From: Verrucomicrobiota bacterium
Lineage (GTDB): Bacteria > Verrucomicrobiota > Verrucomicrobiia > Opitutales > Puniceicoccaceae
Direction of reading: 5' to 3'
DNA length: 64,000 bases
Assembly (NCBI GenBank): GCA_038744685.1
Contig: JBCDMB010000005.1
Span: forward strand, 62,001-126,000
Position numbers and translations under genes: made by a program. How positions within the stretch are numbered: the first letter of the stretch is position 1; the number at the start of each line of letters is the position of its first letter. This document shows positions 45,682 through 63,661 of this stretch, in pieces. The notes below the pieces were generated by a model. That model ran no database searches. It was not told where the DNA came from and saw nothing but the letters and a program-made list of their open reading frames with translations.

Positions 45682-47118
45682 ATGCACTTGGACAATTCAC
45701 TTTATTTGATTTTTCTTCAGAAGGAGCACGGGTTCCTCTTCGGTAGCCCATTAAGCAATAGAATGGAAAGCCTCAGGTTAGTCATTGCAAAAGCGAAAAA
45801 GCACCAAGGCTTCCGACGATATCTTGGAAACACTGGTTGGCTCTTCGGAGGTAGGATGCTCCAGTTGGTTCTCGGGCTATTCGTGTCGATTGCTGTTGCT
45901 CGTTATCTTGGTCCATCGGACTTCGGACTCTTTAATTTTGTTCTATCGATTGTAGCCTTGCTTGCGGTTCTCGGAAATCTAGGTCTTCAAGCCTTAGCCA
46001 AGCGGCAGTTTGTCGAGGAACCGGATTGTCGCGATGACATTCTCGGCACTTGCTTGGTGCTAAGCGTTTCTGCTGGTCTTCTCGTTTATGCCTGTCTTCT
46101 AGCTGTCGCGAGTTTTGTTACTTCCTCAAATCTGGACTTTGCCCTCTTCTCTTTACTAGGTGCAAGCTCGCTGCTCTTTGGGCCCTTTAAGTTAATTGAG
46201 GTCTGGTTTCAATCGCAGGTGAGGTCAGATCTCGCTGTTACGGCAACAGGTATCAGCCTGATAGTCTTTTCGTTAGTCAAGTTAGGTGCCATTTATTTCG
46301 GGGCCAGTGTACTTGAGTTTGCTTACATCTCGTTGGTGTCAGCTATCTCCTTTTCTTGTCTACTTATCTATTTCTACAAGAAGCATTTCGGTTCGGTCCT
46401 TCGATGGCGATTCAAGCATACGATTGCATCAGATTTTCTTAAGCAGTGCTGGCCATTGATTCTCTCCGGTCTCGCGATTGCGGTTTACATGAAAATCGAC
46501 CAAATCATGTTGGGAACTTTGCTTGGACAGGAAGCGGTGGGCTATTACTCGGTTGCAGTAAAGATTAGCTCAGTTTGGTACTTTATTCCCGCTATTCTGG
46601 CTACCTCGCTCTTCCCGGCGATTATGAACGCACGTAAGAGAAGCCGGAAGCTCTACGTTGGTCGCTTGCAGCAGTACTTTGACCTTAACGCTGGCCTCTC
46701 TTACTTGATCTGCGTACCCCTTTCTTTCGCCGCTCCGTTGATCGTCGATCTTCTTTTTGGGGATGAATTTAGCGATTCGGGACCCATACTTGCCGTTCAA
46801 GCCTGGAGTAGCCTGTTCGTTTTCCTTGGCGTCGCTCGTGGGGAGTATCTCGTCGCAGAGAAGTTGTTTAAGTTTTCATTTTGCTGCACCGTTCTTGGAG
46901 CGATCATCAACATTGCATTAAATTATGCGCTGATTCCGGTCCACGGCGGACTCGGTGCGGCAATTGCTACACTTGTCTCCTATGCGGTTTCAGCGTTTCT
47001 GAGCTCCGCTTTTCTTAGAAATAATGACAACATCTTTCGTCGGCAGGTCACCTCTTTGTTCGCGCCTTGCTTGCTGTTTAAAATGCAAAAGTTGAAAATC
47101 AATGAGACCGATAAGTAG
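45682..47118 (+). CDS. Polysaccharide flippase (Wzx-like, MATE superfamily)
   Basis: 478 residues from ATG 45682; ATG 45763 (MESLRLVIAKAKKHQGFRR) is an alternative that fits the family N-terminus better, since flippases normally start just before GWLFGGRMLQLVLGLF. Twelve to fourteen hydrophobic segments, with ARYLGPSDFGLFNFVLSIV, KIDQIMLGTLLGQEAVGYYSVAVKIS, and ALNYALIPVHGGLGAAIATLVSY. It flips the lipid-linked repeat unit across the inner membrane. The next gene starts inside its end (17 bp overlap). Confidence 0.9.
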   Translation: MHLDNSLYLIFLQKEHGFLFGSPLSNRMESLRLVIAKAKKHQGFRRYLGNTGWLFGGRMLQLVLGLFVSIAVARYLGPSDFGLFNFVLSIVALLAVLGNLGLQALAKRQFVEEPDCRDDILGTCLVLSVSAGLLVYACLLAVASFVTSSNLDFALFSLLGASSLLFGPFKLIEVWFQSQVRSDLAVTATGISLIVFSLVKLGAIYFGASVLEFAYISLVSAISFSCLLIYFYKKHFGSVLRWRFKHTIASDFLKQCWPLILSGLAIAVYMKIDQIMLGTLLGQEAVGYYSVAVKISSVWYFIPAILATSLFPAIMNARKRSRKLYVGRLQQYFDLNAGLSYLICVPLSFAAPLIVDLLFGDEFSDSGPILAVQAWSSLFVFLGVARGEYLVAEKLFKFSFCCTVLGAIINIALNYALIPVHGGLGAAIATLVSYAVSAFLSSAFLRNNDNIFRRQVTSLFAPCLLFKMQKLKINETDK

Positions 47119-50537: not shown

Positions 50538-51926
50538 ATGAAATCTAACAGACCCACCGTCTTAAATCCCAATTCACCTAAGCCAAGTTCGTTAGGTATC
50601 CGAGACTTCGTGGCCTTGCGGTGGATTGAGAAAGTATTCGTTTGTAATCTTATTCTACTGATTTTTCATTTCTATTCCTTCCCGATTCTCGGGTTCGGAC
50701 TGGATCTTGGAAGAGCCCTATTTATTGGGGCTACACCGGTATATTTTTATTACATCGTCAGATTTAAGACGTATACCATTGTGCATTATAATGTTGTAAT
50801 ATGTCTTCTATTGATAATGTCAGTCTTTCTTTCTATCACGTTTGGAGATAGGGTTTTTCTAGGTCTCGCGAGAGAACAGATGGTGATTTACACTTTTGGG
50901 GTTTTGCTTTGTATATTTTCATATACTTTGATGGTAAATAACCCCTCATTGTTACGTGGAATGGGGTTCGTGATTGGTGGATGGTTGTTTCTTTGTATGA
51001 TGTTTTCGTTATTGAGTGGATATTATTACTACATTCTGGGAGATATTCCATTTGGAAGTATATTGTCCGAAGATCAGGTGAGATCGGCTGGCGCGAAAAG
51101 AATGATGCTCCCTGCGGCTAAACCTCCTCACCTAAGTGTAATTACTTCGGTTCTTGCTCTCTGGTGCTTTTACACTTTTCTTGGAAAGCGAAGGCTTCTC
51201 TCCTTATGCCTATTTGTTATTTCGGTCTCGATTTGCTTCCTAACGTTTTCAAGAAGTGGAATCGTTGCCTTAGGATTTTCCTTATTTTTCTCTCTATTTA
51301 TCGGAATATTTTTACGGATCGTGAAGGTAGATATAAAGTTCTTTATTGGCTCAATATTGATATCGCTACCAATTTTATTGTATCCAGTCATAAGTGAGTA
51401 CTTTCGGTATGAGCTTAACCTACGGGCGGTTGAGAGACTCGCTAGTATTGACTTCGAAACGATTAGATTTGGGAGGCATTTTGATCTCAGAATGCAGGCG
51501 GTATCGATTTTTGGAAATGCTTCATTTATAGAGAAGATCTTTGGTGTTGGAGTTGGCCAATTTGTCACTCATGCGAGTGGTCCATACGCGTTTTCTCTCT
51601 ACCTAACGGCTCTTGCTGAACAGGGTGTAATGGGTCTTGTTTTAACCGTATCATTGTTTACCGGACCAGTTTTTGTCAGCTTTTGGAAGATGATCAATAA
51701 ACGAACTAGAAGCACTACTTATTTGCTTGTATTCAGTATTGCTGTGGTTCTCTCGCTTTCAAATCTGTTCTATGAATTAAAGAACGCATTTCCGTTGTGG
51801 ATTACTTTAGGATGGCTGTATGCGATGGTAAATAGTAGGCCTTGGATGGTCTTGGAGTCCGATATGGATATTCAAGGTATGGTCAATTTCCGAAAGAGAA
51901 TGCGAACGAGCAGACGGCGGTCGTGA
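50538..51926 (+). CDS. O-antigen polymerase/ligase-like membrane protein (Wzy/WaaL family)
   Basis: 462 residues with about 11-12 hydrophobic segments and a long periplasmic loop before the last helices (LRAVERLASIDFETIRFGRHFDLRMQAVSIFG). The conserved end of the family is seen in IFGVGVGQFVTHASGPYAFSLYLTALAEQGVMGLVL. Wzy polymerises flipped units; WaaL attaches them to a lipid A core. Sequence alone cannot separate the two; a Wzy role is favoured because the locus has a flippase and no other polymerase. The sequence is very AT-rich. Confidence 0.8.
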   Translation: MKSNRPTVLNPNSPKPSSLGIRDFVALRWIEKVFVCNLILLIFHFYSFPILGFGLDLGRALFIGATPVYFYYIVRFKTYTIVHYNVVICLLLIMSVFLSITFGDRVFLGLAREQMVIYTFGVLLCIFSYTLMVNNPSLLRGMGFVIGGWLFLCMMFSLLSGYYYYILGDIPFGSILSEDQVRSAGAKRMMLPAAKPPHLSVITSVLALWCFYTFLGKRRLLSLCLFVISVSICFLTFSRSGIVALGFSLFFSLFIGIFLRIVKVDIKFFIGSILISLPILLYPVISEYFRYELNLRAVERLASIDFETIRFGRHFDLRMQAVSIFGNASFIEKIFGVGVGQFVTHASGPYAFSLYLTALAEQGVMGLVLTVSLFTGPVFVSFWKMINKRTRSTTYLLVFSIAVVLSLSNLFYELKNAFPLWITLGWLYAMVNSRPWMVLESDMDIQGMVNFRKRMRTSRRRS

Positions 51927-52145: not shown

Positions 52146-53030
52146 ATGACATCCTTAAGTGTAATCGTGCCTGTCTATGACGGAATGAGCTTCATCCCGA
52201 CGTTTTTCCGCGCTTGGCGTGAGCAGATTGAGGGAAAAGCCAGTACCGAGCTTATATTGGTAGACAATGGTTCTAGCGACGGGTCGTACGATTACCTCCT
52301 CAATCTGCAATTGGAATATCCGAGGTTCGAGGTTTTCTCGTACACCGATAAACAGAGTTCCTATGCTGCGAGAAATGCCGCTGTAAGACGAAGCAAGGCC
52401 CCGTTTTTACTATTTACTGACATTGACTGTATACCAAATCCTCAATGGGTTTTATCTGCCGAAAAGACAGCCGAGCTAGCGAGCGCTAAGGCGCTTGTGG
52501 CGGGCAAGGTTTCTCTTTTTCCTAGAGACGGATCATTTAACGCGTTCGAGTGGTTTGACTGTCAGAGTTTTTTGAAAACAGATCAACTTGCTCTCCAAAA
52601 GGTCGGAGTGACGGCGAACTTGTTTGTTTCTCGTCTTCTGTTTGAGGAAGTTGGAGGCTTTAGCGAAATGACCTCCGGTAGCGATGTTGATTTCTCTAAC
52701 CGCGCGGTTTCGGCAGGTGCAGAATTTGCCTATGCTCGTGATATGTGCGTGGGTCATCCAGCTCGGTCCACACAGCGAGAAGTCATAAAAAAGATTGACC
52801 GCGTAGCTCTCGGGAAGGCTGAGCATTGCCGCGAAGGATATGGCGTGCGCGAGAAGTTGCTTTTTGTTTCCAAGCAACTCTTTGGGCTTGTCATTCAACC
52901 TGCTTGGTGGAGGGGGTTACGGAGCATGGTTTGGGAGCCTAGGTTTTCATTGGGGTGGAAGTTTCGTTATGCGATTATCTCGCTGCGTTTATGGAGTCGT
53001 TATCGCCTAAAAATCCTTCGCAATCTTTGA
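52146..53030 (+). CDS. GT2-family glycosyltransferase
   Basis: 294 residues. Classic GT2 start: SLSVIVPVYDGMSFIPTFFRAW, then TELILVDNGSSDGSYDYL, SYAARNAAVRRSKAPFLLFTDIDCIPNPQWV (the DxD metal site), and a typical acceptor part GVTANLFVSRLLFEEVGGFSEMTSGSDVDFSNRAVSAG. It is a membrane-associated enzyme, with the tail helix VSKQLFGLVIQPAWWRGLRSM. It should add a sugar to the lipid-linked oligosaccharide. Confidence 0.9.
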   Translation: MTSLSVIVPVYDGMSFIPTFFRAWREQIEGKASTELILVDNGSSDGSYDYLLNLQLEYPRFEVFSYTDKQSSYAARNAAVRRSKAPFLLFTDIDCIPNPQWVLSAEKTAELASAKALVAGKVSLFPRDGSFNAFEWFDCQSFLKTDQLALQKVGVTANLFVSRLLFEEVGGFSEMTSGSDVDFSNRAVSAGAEFAYARDMCVGHPARSTQREVIKKIDRVALGKAEHCREGYGVREKLLFVSKQLFGLVIQPAWWRGLRSMVWEPRFSLGWKFRYAIISLRLWSRYRLKILRNL

Positions 53031-53103: not shown

Positions 53104-54264
53104 ATGCTTCGAACTGAAAAAAAAAGGCATCCTCTATTGGTTGGAACTGAGGTGGTCCCAAACTCAGGAGGGATGTCCAAGACTATGCGGGCATTCTGTG
53201 GTGTCTTGGATGGACAGATCGTTTCGTTTACCTCTAAGAATGCGTCAACTTCTGAGAAGTCTGCATTCCCGGAGGTTTTTCACGTTGATACTTCCTCTAA
53301 CAAGTTACTCGGTTGGTTTGGGTGGGCTTCCTCTTGGCAAAGATCAGGTGCTGAAGCTTTAACTAAGGATGTTAACTTGATTACGTGCCATATGATGCTG
53401 AGATACCATTCTCATTGGGCGCGGTCTGTTGCCAAAAAGGAAGATATTCCTTACTGGGTTATCCCGCATGGGCAGTTAGACCCTTGGGTTTATACCTACA
53501 GAGCTGGAGTCAAGCAGCTTTGGTTGCGACTCTTCGGACGTCGTATTTTACAAACGGCACAGTATGTGATTTTTGCGACCGAATCAGAGAGGAAAAAAGC
53601 TTCATGGTTTTACGAAGGCGCGAATACTCGCGTGGTTCATTGGCCAGTAGAATTGATTGATGTTTCAAAGAAGGATGATTGTAGGCTAGGGTTACGGCGT
53701 GATTTGGGTGTTTCGGAGGACAGTCGGATTCTGCTATTCTTTGGACGTTTGCACTCGATGAAAAGGCCTTTGGAAACCATAGAGTTGCTTTCGAAGACCA
53801 ACGATTCAAAGTTGCATTTGGTGGTAGTGGGCCCGGATGGAGATATCTCCGCGGAACGATGTCGAAAAGAAGCGCAGGCATTAGGAGTTGGGTCCCGGGT
53901 GCATGTCCTCGGTCCGGTCTTTGGAGAGAAAAAGAATCAGTATTTGCTCGGAGCAGATGCGTTCATCTCACTATCTCATCGTGAGAATTTCGGGCACACC
54001 GCGGCAGAGGCATTGGCGGCTGCTACGCCTGTAATACTGTCTCCCGGAAACGACTTGGGGCCGGAATTAGCCTCCCGGAGTTGCGGCTGGTTATTGGAGT
54101 CGAACGACTTGGAGGATGCGCTCTCTGCGATTGAGGATTTGACAAGATCGGACCAAAACGATCTGCGAGGAAAAGGTAACCGAGGAAGAGACTTTATTGC
54201 GGAAGAGTGTAGTCCAGATCGTTTTAGACGTGCGCTTTTGGAAATGAAGAATTCACAAGCGTAA
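53104..54264 (+). CDS. GT4-family glycosyltransferase
   Basis: 386 residues with the GT-B fold. N-terminal TEVVPNSGGMSKTMRAFCGVL holds the glycine loop, WVIPHGQLDPWVYTYRAGVKQLWLRLFGRRILQTA is typical of WbaZ-like EPS glycosyltransferases, and the donor domain has ILLFFGRLHSMKRPLETIEL and the E-x7-E region ISLSHRENFGHTAAEALAAATPVIL. Retaining sugar transfer from a nucleotide sugar is expected. The downstream gene is a remnant, so this may end the active part of the gene block. Confidence 0.9.
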   Translation: MLRTEKKRHPLLVGTEVVPNSGGMSKTMRAFCGVLDGQIVSFTSKNASTSEKSAFPEVFHVDTSSNKLLGWFGWASSWQRSGAEALTKDVNLITCHMMLRYHSHWARSVAKKEDIPYWVIPHGQLDPWVYTYRAGVKQLWLRLFGRRILQTAQYVIFATESERKKASWFYEGANTRVVHWPVELIDVSKKDDCRLGLRRDLGVSEDSRILLFFGRLHSMKRPLETIELLSKTNDSKLHLVVVGPDGDISAERCRKEAQALGVGSRVHVLGPVFGEKKNQYLLGADAFISLSHRENFGHTAAEALAAATPVILSPGNDLGPELASRSCGWLLESNDLEDALSAIEDLTRSDQNDLRGKGNRGRDFIAEECSPDRFRRALLEMKNSQA

Positions 54265-54373: not shown

Positions 54374-54775
54374 ATGTCTCCAAAAATTGTTTTGTGGTCT
54401 TCTGGAGAGTACGGAGCTTTCGTGAGGGGAATGCTCCATGATTTGCAGAGGCAGGGTATCTCCGTTAACCAGGGATTCCTAACTTCGCAGGACTCTTAAC
54501 GTGCCATGCGGGGATTGCTTGAAATGTTCTGTTTGTGGGCACAAATGTATGTCATCTATCCGGTTAAATTGGTCTTGCGGCAGCTCTTTAGTCGTAAGTC
54601 GGGTGTCCACGTCGTCTGTCCAAGTGTATTCTATGCACCTTTGATCTGTTCAATTTTACACCCCAAAACGGTGTCCTTTACTCCATTTGGTTTGCGGTCT
54701 CTTTCCAGTTGTTCCGCGCCACTTTGTAAGGGTTTTCAGATTCGATTCTATTTTGTATGGCAGAACTATTTGTAA
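54374..54775 (+). pseudogene. N-terminal remnant of a GT4-like glycosyltransferase
   Basis: From ATG 54374 (GAGGT just upstream) the frame reads MSPKIVLWSSGEYGAFVRGM and LTSQDS, then TAA at about 54497, and continues in the same frame as RAMRGLLEMFCLWAQMYVIY then PVKLVLRQLFSRKSGVHV and VCPSVFYAPLICSILHPKTV. This parallels the intact glycosyltransferase at 56401, which has LYVFYPILLVRKVLFAKRES then IFIVTTNTFYAPLLTAVFG at the same place. The remaining three quarters of the gene are gone; the sequence runs into the epimerase pseudogene. A duplication/deletion in the locus is likely. Confidence 0.65.
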
Positions 54776-55806
54776 CAGGGTCCTCGGGTCTCATCGGGTC
54801 CGAGGTTTGCGTGTTTTTTGCGGCTCAAGGCATTAGGGTTCGCGGTGTGGACAACAACCGGCGGTCCGTTTTCTTTGGTCCACAAGGTGACACTCGCTGG
54901 AATCAGAAGCGGTTACAAGCCGATTTAAAGGGTTTTGTTCATCATGAGATGGACATCCGTGACCGTGTCGGTGTTTCTGAGTTGTTGAGAGAAGTCCGCC
55001 CTGACGTGATCGTCCATACTGCGGCTCAGCCTTCCCATGATCGGGCGGCGGCGATCCCGTTTGACGATTTTGATACGAATGCGGTGGGAACGTTAAATTT
55101 GTTGTAAGCGGTCCGCCAAAATTGTCCGGAGACTCCGTTCATTCACATGTCCACAAATAAGGTCTACGGTGACGCTCCGAATCGAATCCTACTTCAGGAA
55201 TTGGAGACCCGGTAGGATTACGACGACCCGAATTTTGCTGAGGGGATCTCCGAGACATTCTCGATCGATCAGTCGAAGCACTCTCTCTTTGGGGCGTCCA
55301 AGGTTGCAGCGGACATCATGGTGCAGGAATACGGTCAGTATTTCGGAATTCCCACCTGTTGTCTGCGAGGCGGTTGCCTGACCGGTCCGAACCATAGTGG
55401 AGTCGAGTTGCGCGGGTTCCTCAGTTACTTGGTAAAGTGTAATCTGGAGGAGAAACCTTACACGATATTTGGCTATAAAGGGAAGCAGGTGAGGGACAGT
55501 ATTCATTCTTTGGACGTCGCCCGTTTCATGTGGGAGTTTTCCCAAGCACCTCGGAGCGGAGAGGTCTACAACCTCGGTGGTGGACAAGAAAATAGCTGCT
55601 CCATGCTGGAAGCGTTTGAAAAGGTGGAGGGGTTGTCCGGAAAGAAGATGGACTACACCTACTCGGACCAAAACCGGGAAGGTGATCATATTTGCTACTA
55701 CTGCGACCTTCGGAAAATGAAGGAGCACTATCCAAACTGGGACATTACGAAAAGCCTAGATGATATCTTTTCGGAAATCGTCGAAGCGTGGAAATCGAGG
55801 AAGTAA
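54757..55806 (+). pseudogene. NAD-dependent nucleotide-sugar epimerase with two in-frame stops
   Basis: One frame covers a complete 350-codon epimerase of the CDP-paratose/tyvelose-epimerase-like SDR group. It begins [20 protein letters not shown], then has [20 protein letters not shown] and NAVGTLNLL, a TAA at 55105-55107, [20 protein letters not shown] (with the catalytic-region Ser/Thr and Asn), ELETR, a TAG at 55213-55215, [19 protein letters not shown] and [17 protein letters not shown]. Later come [19 protein letters not shown] and [20 protein letters not shown]. The first stop replaces an expected Glu (GAA) and the second an expected Trp (TGG). Everything else is intact and well conserved, so the lesions look recent. 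Confidence 0.8.
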
Positions 55807-55899: not shown

Positions 55900-56340
55900 A
55901 TGGGGGGATTAGCGGTCCTCAGCTTTGCTGGGCTTCTCTTCTTTATGAGCGAAAGCTATCTGAGTGATGAGGGATACTCTTTGATTGGTGCTGCGTTCGA
56001 GGTCCACGGCGAACTCGGCCGAGGATTGAGCGAGGAGATTTATCAGGAAAGTTTAGAATGGGAGCTTGGATTGCGGAAGATTGTGTATCAGTCGAAAGCT
56101 GAACTGAAGGTTTTCTACAAAGGACATCTTTTAAACAAGCGATATATCCCTGATCTCCAAGTTTGCGGAGAAATTCTGGTGGAGTTGAAAGCAGTCAAAG
56201 AACTGAACTCCGAGCACGAGCAGCAACTCCTTAACTATATGTATATCACGAGAAAGGCGGTTGGGTATTTAATCAATTTCGCTCCTCCATCGCTGAAATG
56301 GAAACGCTTCATTCTCGAACAGTATGTCCCAAAAGAATGA
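55900..56340 (+). CDS. GxxExxY-family protein (PD-(D/E)xK-like)
   Basis: 146 residues from ATG 55900, which has a GAGGAA ribosome site. ATG 55945 (MSESYLSDEG) matches the usual family start, and the first 15 residues are hydrophobic. The name motif is clear: VHGELGRGLSEEIYQESLEWEL. The nuclease-like core follows: IVYQSKAELKVFYKGHLLNKRYIPDLQVCGEILVELKAVKELNSEHEQQLLNYM, with the Asp, Glu-x-Lys pattern of PD-(D/E)xK folds. The function of the family is unknown; members are scattered in genomes, often inside polysaccharide loci, and are frequently mobile. Confidence 0.88.
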   Translation: MGGLAVLSFAGLLFFMSESYLSDEGYSLIGAAFEVHGELGRGLSEEIYQESLEWELGLRKIVYQSKAELKVFYKGHLLNKRYIPDLQVCGEILVELKAVKELNSEHEQQLLNYMYITRKAVGYLINFAPPSLKWKRFILEQYVPKE

Positions 56341-57639: not shown

Positions 57640-59070
57640 TTAACCGCCACTGTTTGGTTGTTTTGCTGCAAAGCCGCCACTTGGTTTAAACCCTAGCTGC
57701 TGCTGGATTTTTTCTGATGAAAAGGCGGCATTTCCAGCCAATTTCTGGAGAGCGTCCGAGTCGAAGATGAAACGTCGGCTACGGAGGCGACCGATTGTAT
57801 CCCCAATTCTTGCCATGCTCTTGAGCATCCATATGGGGACAGTCCATCGAGGCGGCTGACGTTCTATCTTATTCAAAATTTCTACGTACAGCTCCCGGGT
57901 TGAGATCGGGTTACCATCCGTAACTATAAAAATCTCACCGGGGGCTTTTTTGTGGCTGGATGCCAGCACTAAGGCTTGGGTGGCATCGTCGATGTGAACC
58001 ATCGACCGCTTGTTGCCGAATTCAGGGATCGGTGGAAACCGGTTTCGGCGGATGGCCTCTTCCATTTTTTCCATGTTTCCAGTCTCGCGGCCGCCGTGGA
58101 TCATCGAGAAGCGTAGAACGACCGGCTCGGGGATGAAGCTGCCTTTGAGCACCAGCTCTTCCGCCTCCAGCTTGGTTTTTCCATAGGGAGTTTCAGGGCC
58201 GGTTGGAGAGTTTTCGTCGAGAATACCCTCCGGATTCTCTGGATACACCTTAACGGTGCTTGCGAAAACAAAACGGCAGACCGCAGCGGTTTTCGCTGCC
58301 TCAAGAAGCTTTCGCGTGCCATCTACTGTAATCGCCCGGTAGCTCTCCTCTTCCGAGCCAGGCCTTTCCTCAAGGGCGTGGGCTTTGCCTGCCAAGTGGA
58401 CGATAATATCGACACCTTCAATAGCTTCGGGAGGGATAGGGTCAATCGTGAGATCACACTTAAAGAAGTATGGGGAAGATTGTGGATCTTCGTGGGGGTT
58501 TTGCTTCAGTGAGCCCTTTTCAACTAGAGCTGATGGGGCATCTGAAGCAGCTTCCCGAAGGTCATCGGCGTTACCGCCAATGCTACATTTTGATCTCTTG
58601 CCATGCCGAGACGATGGCTGACTCCTCGCCTCTATATTCTGGCCTGCCCGGCTCCTGACTAAACACCGCACTTCATAGTGCTCTAGGGCTTTTCCCAGAA
58701 ACGCGGATCCCAGATAGCCCGTGGAACCGGTGAGCAAAAGAGTTGGTTTGGAGTCTGATCTTTGTTCATCATTTGCAGGTGACGAGTCTTGTTCTTCAGA
58801 GGGTGGTTGAGTGCTCACGGGAGGATTGAGGCAGAAGCGGTGATAGAGGTCGAATGTATTGAGAGCGAGTTCAAGTTTAGATCGGGAGGAACTTTGAACG
58901 TGGGGACTGGCAGGATTCGTGCCCTCTCCTAAAACCCTCCCAGGTGACTTTTTGTTATCGGTGGGAACGGCTCCGTCCGAAGCGCACGTGTAGTCCAATA
59001 GACCAACTGTTAACTCGCGATGAATCGGCGAAGAATAACGCCAAACCCCGAACGGATCATAGCTAGTCAC
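57640..59070 (-). CDS. NAD-dependent epimerase/dehydratase (WbpV/Gne-like) with extra segments
   Basis: 476 residues as an open frame; the family is usually about 320. The SDR core starts at about residue 105 (PTLLLTGSTGYLGSAFLGKALEHYEVRCLVR). A ~45-residue Ser/Arg/Lys-rich insertion follows, then FKCDLTIDPIPPEAIEGVDIIVHLAGKAHALEE, FVFASTVKVYPENPEG and TPYGKTKLEAEEL (Tyr-x3-Lys catalytic pair). Near the end are RSMVHIDDATQALVLA and TVPIWMLKSMARIG. It resembles the 4-epimerase/4-reductase (WbpV-type) encoded next to WbpL and WbpM in Pseudomonas. The first ~105 residues are not homologous in feel and may be an extension or a wrong start; the real start may lie downstream. Confidence 0.8.
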   Translation of the reverse strand: MTSYDPFGVWRYSSPIHRELTVGLLDYTCASDGAVPTDNKKSPGRVLGEGTNPASPHVQSSSRSKLELALNTFDLYHRFCLNPPVSTQPPSEEQDSSPANDEQRSDSKPTLLLTGSTGYLGSAFLGKALEHYEVRCLVRSRAGQNIEARSQPSSRHGKRSKCSIGGNADDLREAASDAPSALVEKGSLKQNPHEDPQSSPYFFKCDLTIDPIPPEAIEGVDIIVHLAGKAHALEERPGSEEESYRAITVDGTRKLLEAAKTAAVCRFVFASTVKVYPENPEGILDENSPTGPETPYGKTKLEAEELVLKGSFIPEPVVLRFSMIHGGRETGNMEKMEEAIRRNRFPPIPEFGNKRSMVHIDDATQALVLASSHKKAPGEIFIVTDGNPISTRELYVEILNKIERQPPRWTVPIWMLKSMARIGDTIGRLRSRRFIFDSDALQKLAGNAAFSSEKIQQQLGFKPSGGFAAKQPNSGG

Positions 59071-59246: not shown

Positions 59247-61448
59247 ATGCTTCTGATCTTTCTGTTTGCTGCGTTCTTTGGCTCGCTCCTCCTGACGATG
59301 GTCTACTACAGGAAGGCGCCGGAATGGGGCTTGGTCGACGTTCCCAATCAGCGGTCGTCTCACATTCGGGTGACTCCGCGCGGGGGTGGGGTGGTGTTTA
59401 TTTTGTTCTGGTTAGTCTTTGGGGTGGCTTGGATGTCGTTCGCAGGCAACGGCGAGGAGGTTTGGAATCTCGATCTCGTTGTCTTTGTAGGACTCTCTAT
59501 CGGAGTCGGAATCCTGGGGCTCGTCGATGATCGACTCACCCTTTCCTCGGGGTTGCGACTGCTCGTTCAACTACTGGTCGCGGTTACTGTGGTTAGTTTG
59601 GTTAGGCCGTTCGATGCACTGACCCTCCCAGGCCTCCCGTCTAACGCGATTCCGGTACTCGGTTATGGAATTACGGTTCTCTGGATCCTCGGACTGACGA
59701 ACGTCTACAACTTTATGGACGGTATCGACGGCATCGCTGCAGGCCAAGGGATTGTGGCCGCGCTTGGATGGGCGGTCGCCGCTCATGTTTTTTTCGCTTC
59801 TGAAGTCTTTGTCGTTCTCAACCTACTCTTGGCGGCTGTTCTTTCTGGATTCCTGGTGTGGAATTGGCATCCGGCGAAGGTGTTCATGGGTGATGTTGGC
59901 AGTGCCTTCCTCGGATTCTATTTTGCCACTCAGCCGCTTGTCCTCCTCAATCTTCCGGATGTTCCGGATCGAGCCGGTCTTTTGGTCTTTTTGTCAGCCT
60001 TCATGGTTTGGCCATTTATCTTTGATGGCTTCTTCACTTTCTGCCGTCGCGCTTTGAGGCGCGAAAACGTGCTTCAGGCTCATCGGACCCACCTTTACCA
60101 GCGTTTGACCAAGCTTGGTTGGACCCATAGAAGAGTCGCGATCATCTACGTAGGTTGGGCGCTGGTTTGCGGGTTTCTTGCGGGAGTCTACCTTTATGGT
60201 GGGATCAAGGGGTGGACGGTTCTCCAGTGGGTAGCGATTGCCTTTCAGGTAGTCTCCGGCATTTCGATGGTAGCTTTGGTCACCGTTCTGGAAAAAAGAA
60301 TGCTTAGGTTCAGGAAGGTGTATCTGTCTGCTCCAGCCCATTCTAGCATCGAGTTGGACTATGTGACAGAGGTGCTGCGAAGCGATTGGATTGCGCCCAT
60401 TGGACCGAACCTTGACCTTTTTGAAGAGGAGATGGCCGAGTACGTCGGCGTGAAGAATGCCTGTGCGGTAGCCTCTGGAACTGCAGGACTACACTTGCTA
60501 CTTCGCGCTTTGGGAATCGGCCATGGTGACAAAGTGCTTGTCTCGGATTTCACTTTCGTCGCTACAGTCAATCCCATTATCTACGTGGGTGCCGAGCCGA
60601 TTCTTCTGGACGCGGACCGGGCCACATGGAATGCGCCATTGGACCGAGTAAAGGAAGCAGTGGAAGCTGTCCGTATGGAAACCGGGAAAACTCCCAAGGC
60701 TCTGATTCTTGCCCATGTTTATGGGATCTGCTCAGATGTCGAGAGCATCGGAAACTATTGTAGAGAAAAGGGTGTCCTGTTGATTGAAGATGCAGCTGAG
60801 GCGGTGGGCTCTTTTTTTCGAGGACGGCATCTGGGATCGTTTGGCGACGCAGCCATCTTTTCATTCAATGGTAATAAGATTCTCACGACGGGAGGGGGTG
60901 GAATGGTGGTTTCGGAGGATCGGAACGTCACGGATAAAGTCCGCTTTCTGGCGTCTCAAGCGAAAGAGAAAGTCCTCTATTACGAACATCGAGATTTAGG
61001 TTACAATGAGCGGATGAGCAACGTGCTGGCCGCGATCGGTCGAGCACAGTTGCGTCGTCTTCCAACCTTTTTGGATGCGCGTGAGCGGCACAACCGCTTC
61101 TACCGGGCTATGGTTTCGGATCATCCGGGAGTGACCTTCATGCCCGTTCCGGAAGATTGTAATCCGAACTATTGGCTCACGAATATATTGATTGATTCTG
61201 CAAAAGCGGGATTTTCTGCGAGGCAACTGATTGAGGCTATGGATCGTGCGAGAATTGAAGTTCGGCCCCTTTGGAAACCCATGCATGCACAACCTTATTA
61301 CCAGAAGCGTGGGACAAGTGTTTTTGGCGGTGAAATAGGAGATGACCTTTTCGATAAAGGTGTTTCTTTGCCAAGTGGATCGGCTATGACTGACCACGAC
61401 AGGGAGAGGGTTGCAGAGGTGTGGAAACGTGTCGCTGGGGGTGGATAG
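59247..61448 (+). CDS. Phosphoglycosyltransferase-aminotransferase fusion (WbpL/WecA + DegT/PglE)
   Basis: 733 residues in one chain. Residues about 1-345 are a WecA/WbpL-type polyprenyl-phosphate sugar-1-phosphate transferase with about ten membrane helices: WGLVDVPNQRSSHIRVTPRGG, ILGLVDDRLTLS (Asp pair), LTNVYNFMDGIDGIAAGQG, KVFMGDVGSAFLGFYFA and QAHRTHLYQRLTKLGW. Residues about 355-733 are a DegT/DnrJ/EryC1/StrS PLP aminotransferase: YVTEVLRSDWIAPIGPNLDLFEEEMAEYVG, CAVASGTAGLHLLLRALG, LIEDAAEAVGSFFRGRHLGSFG, and FSFNGNKILTTGGGGMVV, whose Lys544 should hold PLP. The second part resembles PglE, which aminates UDP-4-keto-6-deoxy-GlcNAc. Product and transfer step are thus joined in one membrane protein. 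Confidence 0.9.
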   Translation: MLLIFLFAAFFGSLLLTMVYYRKAPEWGLVDVPNQRSSHIRVTPRGGGVVFILFWLVFGVAWMSFAGNGEEVWNLDLVVFVGLSIGVGILGLVDDRLTLSSGLRLLVQLLVAVTVVSLVRPFDALTLPGLPSNAIPVLGYGITVLWILGLTNVYNFMDGIDGIAAGQGIVAALGWAVAAHVFFASEVFVVLNLLLAAVLSGFLVWNWHPAKVFMGDVGSAFLGFYFATQPLVLLNLPDVPDRAGLLVFLSAFMVWPFIFDGFFTFCRRALRRENVLQAHRTHLYQRLTKLGWTHRRVAIIYVGWALVCGFLAGVYLYGGIKGWTVLQWVAIAFQVVSGISMVALVTVLEKRMLRFRKVYLSAPAHSSIELDYVTEVLRSDWIAPIGPNLDLFEEEMAEYVGVKNACAVASGTAGLHLLLRALGIGHGDKVLVSDFTFVATVNPIIYVGAEPILLDADRATWNAPLDRVKEAVEAVRMETGKTPKALILAHVYGICSDVESIGNYCREKGVLLIEDAAEAVGSFFRGRHLGSFGDAAIFSFNGNKILTTGGGGMVVSEDRNVTDKVRFLASQAKEKVLYYEHRDLGYNERMSNVLAAIGRAQLRRLPTFLDARERHNRFYRAMVSDHPGVTFMPVPEDCNPNYWLTNILIDSAKAGFSARQLIEAMDRARIEVRPLWKPMHAQPYYQKRGTSVFGGEIGDDLFDKGVSLPSGSAMTDHDRERVAEVWKRVAGGG

Positions 61449-61495
61449 TTGAGAGCCGAGAGTGGAAGCTGAAAACTGAAAGCGGTAGTGCTGTA

Positions 61496-61568
61496 AGGAG
61501 AGGGTTCATCCCTCGATGATGCAGCTCCGGGGACAACACACGCGGATCGAGGGGTGAACCCTCTTCCT
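61496..61568. repeat. Intergenic long palindrome, family D
   Basis: AGGAGAGGGTTCATCCCTCG and CGAGGGGTGAACCCTCTTCC are inverted across about 29 bp. It is in the 311-bp gap between the fusion gene and the WbpM-type gene. At 61609-61631 the sequence TTCGAATCTCCGTCCCGCGC looks like the 3' T-loop half of a tRNA, but no acceptor partner or anticodon arm precedes it. Confidence 0.7.
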
Positions 61569-61759
61569 AGTGTGATAGCCGGATAAACAAAATCGGAAGT
61601 AAGTTGTGTTCGAATCTCCGTCCCGCGCCGACTCTCCTGAGCATGGTATGCGTCCCAATCCAATCCGAATGAAAATTCAGAGTTATTCCTGCCTTCGGCC
61701 GCAATTCGGTGATTGGCTTATTTGCATGCATTCCTAATTTTTAAAGGCTTTTCTCGTCG

Positions 61760-63661
61760 ATGCCGCCACAAAAGAACATTAGTGAGCTTTTCCGTAACTT
61801 ACGGGTAGTTCTCCTTGCGATTGCTTACGCGTTTTTTTTCGCGATGAGCCTGTGGCTCGCCTACGATCTCCGTTTTGATTTTCTCGTTCCGGAACAGGCA
61901 CAGGTCGAGCGCCTAGTCGCGCTTTCCTTCGTCATCCCACTGAAGCTGGTTTGTCTCTGGCTGTTTGGGCAGTTTCGAGGGCTACTTTCATTCTTCCGGA
62001 TTCCTGACCTCAGCCGCCTTTTCTTTGGACTGTTACTTGCCAGCACGGTTCTGTTGATTGTGCGTGTTCTTGAGCCGACTGGTCTTCAAGTGATTCCACG
62101 TGGAGTGCTTCTTGCCGATTTTCTTCTTTCTCTGATTCTTCTGGTTGGCTTCCGCATGGGGTTGCGAGTCGCTCGGGAAAAGTTCAATCAGAAATCGGGA
62201 GGAAGAAGGAAGAAAACAGAGAGGATCGGGGTGATTGGAGCAGGATCAACCGGGGCTACCCTTGCGGCGGAGTTTTTGGCCAAACCGCATCTTGGTGTGA
62301 ATCCAGTAGTCTTTTTTGACGATGATCCGGGTAAAGTCGGAAGAGACATTCATGGTATACCGATCGTCCCTATTCCCGAGAGTTTCGAAGGAGCAACTGA
62401 TCGGTTTGTCATCACTACAGTTGCAATAGCGATTCCCTCACTCAACGGACGGCGCGTTCGCGAGATTCTGGAATCCGCACGGGCTGCTCGCCTCGAAACT
62501 ACGATTATTCCCAGCTTGCACGAGCTTTCCACGGGGAGAGTTAAGATTGAGGAGATGCGAAACATTGAGGTCGAAGACCTTTTAGGGCGTGAATCGGTTC
62601 TTGTGGCCAACGATTCGATCCGGGACTTCGTTAAAGAGAGAGTAGTTCTCGTCACTGGTGCAGGCGGGAGCATTGGGAGCGAGATCGTTCGGCAAGTAGC
62701 CTCGTTTAATCCTGCTCGGATCTTGCTCCTTGATCACTCAGAATTAGCGGTTTTTTCCATTGAACAGGAAATGAGAGAAAATGAGTCGGGTGCCTCTGTG
62801 ACCGCTTTGGTGGCTGATATTTGCGAACCGCTTACGATGAGGAAAATCCTGAAGCGCTACCGACCTGCGATCATTTTTCATGCGGCAGCCTACAAACATG
62901 TTCCGTTGATGGAAACCCAACCATGGGAGGCCGTGGCTAACAATGCAGTTGGAACTTTGAGAATAGGAAGTTTGGCCCGTGAGTTTGGTGTGGAGAGGTT
63001 TGTTTTGGTTTCAACCGATAAGGCGATTAACCCTACTAGCGTCATGGGGGCCTCTAAGCGATTAGCGGAAATGGCGGTGCAGAGTTTACAGGAGTCATCG
63101 GCTTGTGCAGCCGATGCTACTGGAAGAAGTGGGACCAAGTTCTGCTCGGTTCGGTTTGGGAATGTTCTGGGATCTTCCGGGAGCGTGATCCCTACCTTTC
63201 GACGGCAAATCGAACGGGGTGGGCCGGTTACGGTGACTCATCCGGACGTGACCCGCTATTTTATGACGATTCCTGAAGCGGTGGGGCTGGTTCTTCAGGC
63301 GGCGGCAATTGGCGAAGGAGGCGAGATTTTCCTTCTCGATATGGGCAAGCCGGTAAAGATCATCGATCTGGCCCGGCAGATGATTCAACTGAGTGGATTC
63401 GAGCCTGACACCGAGATCGAAATTGAAATCACTGGGCTACGGCCTGGAGAGAAACTCTTCGAGGAGTTAAATTACGAGACCGAGAATTCAGAAGAGACCG
63501 TGCATCCAAGGATCCGTGCCCTACGAACAAATCTCGGGGCTGGGGCCGAATTTGAGGAATGGATGGTAACCTTGGAGCAGGATCTCCTCTCCCTCTCCGA
63601 GTCCGAAGTGAAGGACAGGATTCGTGAGAGGGTAACTGAGTATACACCGTTTGTGGAGTAG
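61760..63661 (+). CDS. UDP-sugar 4,6-dehydratase, WbpM/PglF/CapD family
   Basis: 633 residues. Four hydrophobic segments in the first ~130 residues (VLLAIAYAFFFAMSLWLAYDL, VPLKLVCLWLFGQFRG region, LLLASTVLLIVRVL, LLADFLLSLILLVGF), then a CoA-binding-like Rossmann domain (IGVIGAGSTGATLAAEFL), and the SDR catalytic domain: VLVTGAGGSIGSEIVRQVA, IFHAAAYKHVPLMETQPWEAV, VLVSTDKAINPTSVMGASKR (Met-x3-Lys in place of Tyr-x3-Lys, as in WbpM), and CSVRFGNVLGSSGSVIPTFRRQI. It converts UDP-GlcNAc to UDP-4-keto-6-deoxy-GlcNAc, the substrate expected by the aminotransferase half of the fusion upstream. Confidence 0.93.
   Translation: MPPQKNISELFRNLRVVLLAIAYAFFFAMSLWLAYDLRFDFLVPEQAQVERLVALSFVIPLKLVCLWLFGQFRGLLSFFRIPDLSRLFFGLLLASTVLLIVRVLEPTGLQVIPRGVLLADFLLSLILLVGFRMGLRVAREKFNQKSGGRRKKTERIGVIGAGSTGATLAAEFLAKPHLGVNPVVFFDDDPGKVGRDIHGIPIVPIPESFEGATDRFVITTVAIAIPSLNGRRVREILESARAARLETTIIPSLHELSTGRVKIEEMRNIEVEDLLGRESVLVANDSIRDFVKERVVLVTGAGGSIGSEIVRQVASFNPARILLLDHSELAVFSIEQEMRENESGASVTALVADICEPLTMRKILKRYRPAIIFHAAAYKHVPLMETQPWEAVANNAVGTLRIGSLAREFGVERFVLVSTDKAINPTSVMGASKRLAEMAVQSLQESSACAADATGRSGTKFCSVRFGNVLGSSGSVIPTFRRQIERGGPVTVTHPDVTRYFMTIPEAVGLVLQAAAIGEGGEIFLLDMGKPVKIIDLARQMIQLSGFEPDTEIEIEITGLRPGEKLFEELNYETENSEETVHPRIRALRTNLGAGAEFEEWMVTLEQDLLSLSESEVKDRIRERVTEYTPFVE

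Follow-up and report, generated by a model that had tools for sequence, protein, structure and literature searches.

A polytopic phosphoglycosyltransferase fused to a PglE/LegC-type aminotransferase in a Verrucomicrobiota polysaccharide locus

For most bacterial surface polysaccharides, the first sugar and the first enzyme are hard to assign from sequence. Polytopic phosphoglycosyltransferases (PGTs) of the WbpL/WecA type usually take UDP-GlcNAc or UDP-QuiNAc/FucNAc as donors. In the Campylobacter PglF–PglE–PglD–PglC and Bacillus EpsC–EpsN–EpsM–EpsL systems for di-N-acetylbacillosamine, a 4,6-dehydratase and a PglE-type aminotransferase are followed by a PglD-type acetyltransferase and then by a separate, monotopic PGT that primes undecaprenyl phosphate (PMC10653937). 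Polytopic and monotopic PGTs have unrelated folds, and an eLife 2024 study describes bifunctional PGTs (Bi-PGTs) among the monotopic enzymes only; its Table 1 gives polytopic PGTs as 'PGT only' (PMC10942596). Here, we describe a locus in which a polytopic PGT and a PglE/LegC-type aminotransferase form one chain.

One open frame with two enzyme domains

The window, a 64,000-nucleotide stretch of a Verrucomicrobiota contig, contains a forward-strand frame at 59247–61448 that starts with ATG and continues uninterrupted for 733 codons. A Pfam search of the encoded protein finds Glycos_transf_4 (PF00953) at residues 78–230, with 119 bits against a cut-off of 27, and DegT_DnrJ_EryC1 (PF01041) at residues 369–724, with 326 bits. 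The monotopic PGT domain PF02397 was not found in this protein, which therefore falls outside the Bi-PGTs. Within 200 nt of the junction, several stops are present in each of the other two forward frames, so no frame change is concealed behind the open one. The original prediction had named a frameshift or stop at about 60290–60330 as the event that would undo the fusion; in the assembled sequence, the frame is open there.

The N-terminal half (59247–60281, forward strand; residues 1–345) is a WecA/WbpL-type PGT with 11 predicted membrane helices. The catalytic motifs of polytopic PGTs (DD, NxxNFxDGxDG, GDxGS, and the HxxH-type loop) appear as DDR 94–96, NVYNFMDGIDG 152–162, MGDVGS 214–219, and HRTHLYQ 279–285. 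The solved MraY and GPT structures are remote relatives of this half, and the fusion scores 71.6 bits with the WecA equivalog model TIGR02380, which requires 326. In an AlphaFold2 model of the fusion (75 sequences, mean pLDDT 93.3, pTM 0.78), the membrane helices span residues 2–23, 48–65, 75–97, 101–118, 136–156, 161–182, 186–206, 215–234, 243–270, 294–317, and 320–355. From the helix count and a positive-inside reading, the PGT catalytic loops would all be cytosolic. Counted via these loops, the 11 helices place the catalytic loops and the C-terminus on the same side of the membrane, and the aminotransferase half is thus predicted to reside in the cytosol, where UDP-sugars are.

The C-terminal half (60312–61448, forward strand) is a PglE/LegC-type aminotransferase of the DegT family, with 1o61 and 4ztc as its best solved relatives. 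The top Foldseek match is 4ztc, the K184A variant of C. jejuni PglE (TMt 0.90), in agreement with the PglE-type assignment made at the outset. This half has the DegT/DnrJ/EryC1 fold with its PLP lysine (K544) and aspartate (D515), and its motifs are SGT 410–412, IEDAAEA 513–519, and NGNK 541–544. Lys544 (codon 60876–60878, forward strand), named in the original prediction, aligns with the PLP lysine of PglE, which is alanine in the 4ztc mutant. Both halves are complete, with all PGT and aminotransferase motifs intact. The best NCBIfam model for the C-terminal half is LegC (TIGR04181), at 352 bits and below the cut-off of 420. The same model gives 332–376 bits for the other fusions and unfused relatives examined, which indicates a LegC/PglE-like clade and no certified LegC.

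The junction (60204–60311, forward strand; residues 320–355) contains an in-frame ATG at 60300, with GGAAAAAAGA ahead of it. In the model, the last membrane helix passes unbroken and without a linker into the aminotransferase; the four other polytopic fusions described below have linkers of ~30 residues. An ATG is found at the natural aminotransferase start in four of the five polytopic fusions and is likely left over from the merging of two separate genes.

Distribution of the fusion and partners of the aminotransferase

A profile built from three fusions was searched against 373 genomes of the same order (Opitutales). The polytopic PGT–aminotransferase fusion is present in five, namely the window genome and four genomes of one genus from another family. 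The original prediction had thus been right about the fusion, which is seen as one open frame, two Pfam domains, and the same architecture in four other genomes; absence from relatives had been set beforehand as a refuting test. The window fusion is confirmed as genuine, a single chain comprising a WecA/WbpL-type PGT and a PglE/LegC-type aminotransferase. The four other proteins are 38–39% identical to the window protein across the full length, and D94, D95, the NFMDGIDG run, GD215–216, H279, H282, D515, and K544 are invariant in all five. Such invariance of the core catalytic residues of both halves at this level of identity is expected if both activities are kept.

The two sampled congeners of the window genome lack the fusion and have a separate aminotransferase. 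In one of them (G002), the unfused gene lies upstream of the MBL and pyruvate-kinase genes that also follow the window locus, the proteins being 75% and 74% identical, respectively, between the two genomes. This shared flank indicates that the fusion occupies a common site at which relatives have a separate aminotransferase gene. At a congener locus, L008 (G001:C47:24658–25851), the unfused aminotransferase match crosses an in-frame TAG near its start; this codon may merely be upstream of the true start.

A single clade of fusions is not rejected with the aminotransferase data (AU p 0.82), where the constrained tree outscored the free quick tree. In the PGT tree, the five fusions are grouped in 0% of bootstrap trees, and the AU test does not reject one group (p 0.19 and p 0.23). 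The distribution and the differing linkers favor two origins, or a transfer, of the polytopic fusion. Searches of plasmids and of viral contigs returned aminotransferase relatives and no fusion. A long frame of 694 codons in G023, considered as a further fusion, was found by reading to carry merely an unrelated upstream extension.

The same type of aminotransferase is also joined to other partners. In two genomes it is fused in frame to a monotopic PGT with a PF02397 domain (G737, L192 2940–4622; G751, L193 256–1983), and these two proteins qualify as Bi-PGTs. In genus g60 (G065, L209 6597–8381, and other genomes), it is fused to a NeuD/PglD-family acetyltransferase, and the fusion gene is flanked by genes for a monotopic PGT and PglF. 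In three genomes (L173, L172, and L023), the gene directly after an unfused aminotransferase gene encodes a polytopic PGT, and one cluster in G030 comprises PglD, the aminotransferase, a polytopic PGT, and PglF. In many relatives, the unfused gene shares a cassette with genes for PglD, PglF, and/or a monotopic PGT, and in some the monotopic PGT, PglD, the aminotransferase, and PglF form one Pgl-like cassette. The association of one aminotransferase with PGTs of two unrelated folds suggests that its product is functionally tied to sugar loading. Together, the fusion to a monotopic PGT, the aminotransferase–PGT gene pairs, and the Pgl-type cassettes lend indirect support to the earlier proposal that an aminated sugar is the PGT substrate.

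Genetic context, proposed role, and alternatives

The next gene 3′ of the fusion (61760–63661, forward strand) encodes a PglF/WbpM-type UDP-GlcNAc 4,6-dehydratase with an N-terminal membrane segment (PF02719, 385 bits, and CoA_binding_3), for which the PseB and FnlA models score far under their cut-offs. Housekeeping genes follow. A 24-nt inverted repeat, 88% complementary with arms 28 nt apart (61494–61569), lies in the interval that separates the PglF gene from the fusion; it is REP-like or terminator-like. PglF is not adjacent to the fusion in the four other fusion genomes, and in one of these, G669 (~84% complete), no PglF was found at E<=1e-40.

On the other side, a divergent gene (57640–59070, reverse strand) encodes an extended SDR of the Epimerase family (Pfam/NCBIfam), a candidate C4-ketoreductase. 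Compared with its relatives, this SDR has ~100 extra N-terminal residues and an apparent insertion after the first strand–helix unit; its true start probably lies further downstream than the GTG.

The polysaccharide cluster upstream of the fusion includes a Wzx-type flippase (45682–47118; PF13440/PF01943), a polytopic 462-residue protein (50538–51926), and GT2 and GT4 glycosyltransferase genes (52146–53030 and 53104–54264), all on the forward strand. The 462-residue protein has no Pfam match and is a candidate Wzy polymerase or ligase, as judged from its hydrophobic character and context. The same cluster contains a nucleotide-sugar epimerase-like SDR gene (54757–55806) that is probably a recent pseudogene, since its otherwise open frame is interrupted by TAA at 55105 and TAG at 55213, and a gene for a PDDEXK_3 family protein (55900–56340).

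Elsewhere in the window genome, PF00953 occurs in just one further gene, a frame of 370 codons that is probably MraY given its neighbors, which were named MurD- and FtsW-like by reading. Three monotopic PGT genes are all located on other contigs. The fusion locus contains no PglD acetyltransferase and in this respect differs from a Pgl-type bacillosamine cassette. The statement in the original prediction that no acetyltransferase gene is present holds for the locus and fails for the genome, where two NeuD/PglD-family genes occur in other contexts (contigs C21 and C16). The C21 gene, the better NeuD/PglD match, has FdtA-like and DegT genes as neighbors; it is unlikely to be the PglD of the fusion pathway and probably serves another sugar.

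We propose that the fusion is a bifunctional initiating enzyme for a Wzx/Wzy-type surface polysaccharide. The neighboring PglF-type dehydratase would convert UDP-GlcNAc to UDP-4-keto-6-deoxy-GlcNAc. The cytosolic C-terminal half would then transfer the amino group of glutamate to C4, with PLP on Lys544, to give UDP-4-amino-4,6-dideoxy-GlcNAc or its C4 epimer. Finally, the membrane-embedded N-terminal half would start the repeat unit by transferring to undecaprenyl phosphate the sugar-1-phosphate of this 4-amino sugar, or of its N-acetyl form. To this sequence of dehydration, amination, and loading we assign a probability of about 0.6. The substrates and the order of steps are inferred from the domains and the locus, as is the notion that tethering of the two halves favors hand-off of the sugar. 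Both a direct hand-off and loading with the 4-amino group free are plausible, and AATGal-primed polymers provide a precedent for the latter. The arrangement suggests that a single machine both makes the starting sugar of the surface chain and loads it. A more specific version is offered tentatively: the aminotransferase built into a polytopic PGT would supply a 4-amino-4,6-dideoxy sugar that is loaded at the membrane in non-acetylated form, bypassing PglD, and such coupling would have arisen separately for polytopic and monotopic PGTs.

The LegC score under its cut-off and the lack of an adjacent PglF in the four other fusion genomes weigh against this reading. A further argument against it comes from an unfused relative (L042), in which an SDR, a PGT, and a dehydratase form a trio whose like is also present at the window locus, so that the PGT could load the product of the SDR. 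The PGT half would then load a 4-hydroxy sugar (UDP-QuiNAc/UDP-FucNAc), like WbpL in clusters of the WbpV–WbpL–WbpM type, while the aminotransferase would make a later sugar, tethered near the shared 4-keto pool. The SDR adjoins the window fusion, and a homologue immediately precedes the fusion in three of the four others. However, no SDR adjoins the fusion in the remaining genome (G672), and the aminotransferase–PGT pairs and the monotopic PGT–aminotransferase fusion occur without such an SDR alongside. We regard this alternative as the main rival, although a rather unlikely one, and the divergent SDR as a possible supplier of a different first sugar, a source that the original prediction left out.

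It is much less probable that the aminotransferase half serves the synthesis of a nonulosonic (legionaminic-type) acid and is joined to the PGT only incidentally. LegC is the best NCBIfam model, and another contig of the window genome has a NeuB-family match, but there is no NeuB near the fusion, the remaining four fusion genomes have only weak matches (38–47 bits), and the adjoining dehydratase is of the PglF/WbpM type. The repeated fusion of the aminotransferase to PGTs of two unrelated folds also argues against an incidental association. Least probable of all, and scarcely credible, is an assembly error in which a stop codon was lost between two neighboring genes. Such an error would be in keeping with the linker-free junction, its in-frame ATG and the GGA-rich stretch just upstream, with the separate aminotransferase of close congeners, and with the reliance on a single draft assembly. 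Against it stand the unbroken model helix across the junction and four other genomes whose fusions share the architecture and have true linkers.

Comparison with known systems

The presence of one sugar-making step and one PGT in a single chain, together with a parallel fusion to a PGT of unrelated fold, provides a natural way to match donor and PGT. The fusion is also a ready system for testing a possible coupling between nucleotide-sugar synthesis and lipid loading, and gives polytopic PGTs a second domain. No polytopic PGT–aminotransferase fusion was found in the literature searched, a set that did not include the survey of monotopic PGTs published in PNAS in 2021. Relative to this literature, in which polytopic PGTs are single-domain enzymes, the second domain is new.

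The window locus resembles the Campylobacter and Bacillus systems in its 4,6-dehydratase, its PglE-type aminotransferase, and a PGT of the kind that primes undecaprenyl phosphate, and differs in that the PGT is polytopic and fused, and in that no PglD stands between amination and loading (PMC10653937). With the Bi-PGTs it shares the joining of a PGT catalytic domain to another functional domain, whereas the superfamily and fold of the PGT are different (PMC10942596). The acetyltransferase–aminotransferase fusions of genus g60 likewise join the same aminotransferase family to a pathway neighbor, but there the partner is the next soluble enzyme, and here it is the membrane PGT. Finally, the WbpL/WecA-type PGTs found beside a WbpV-type SDR and WbpM match the window locus in the family of the N-terminal half and in the adjoining SDR and dehydratase; in contrast to the window protein, they carry no fused aminotransferase.
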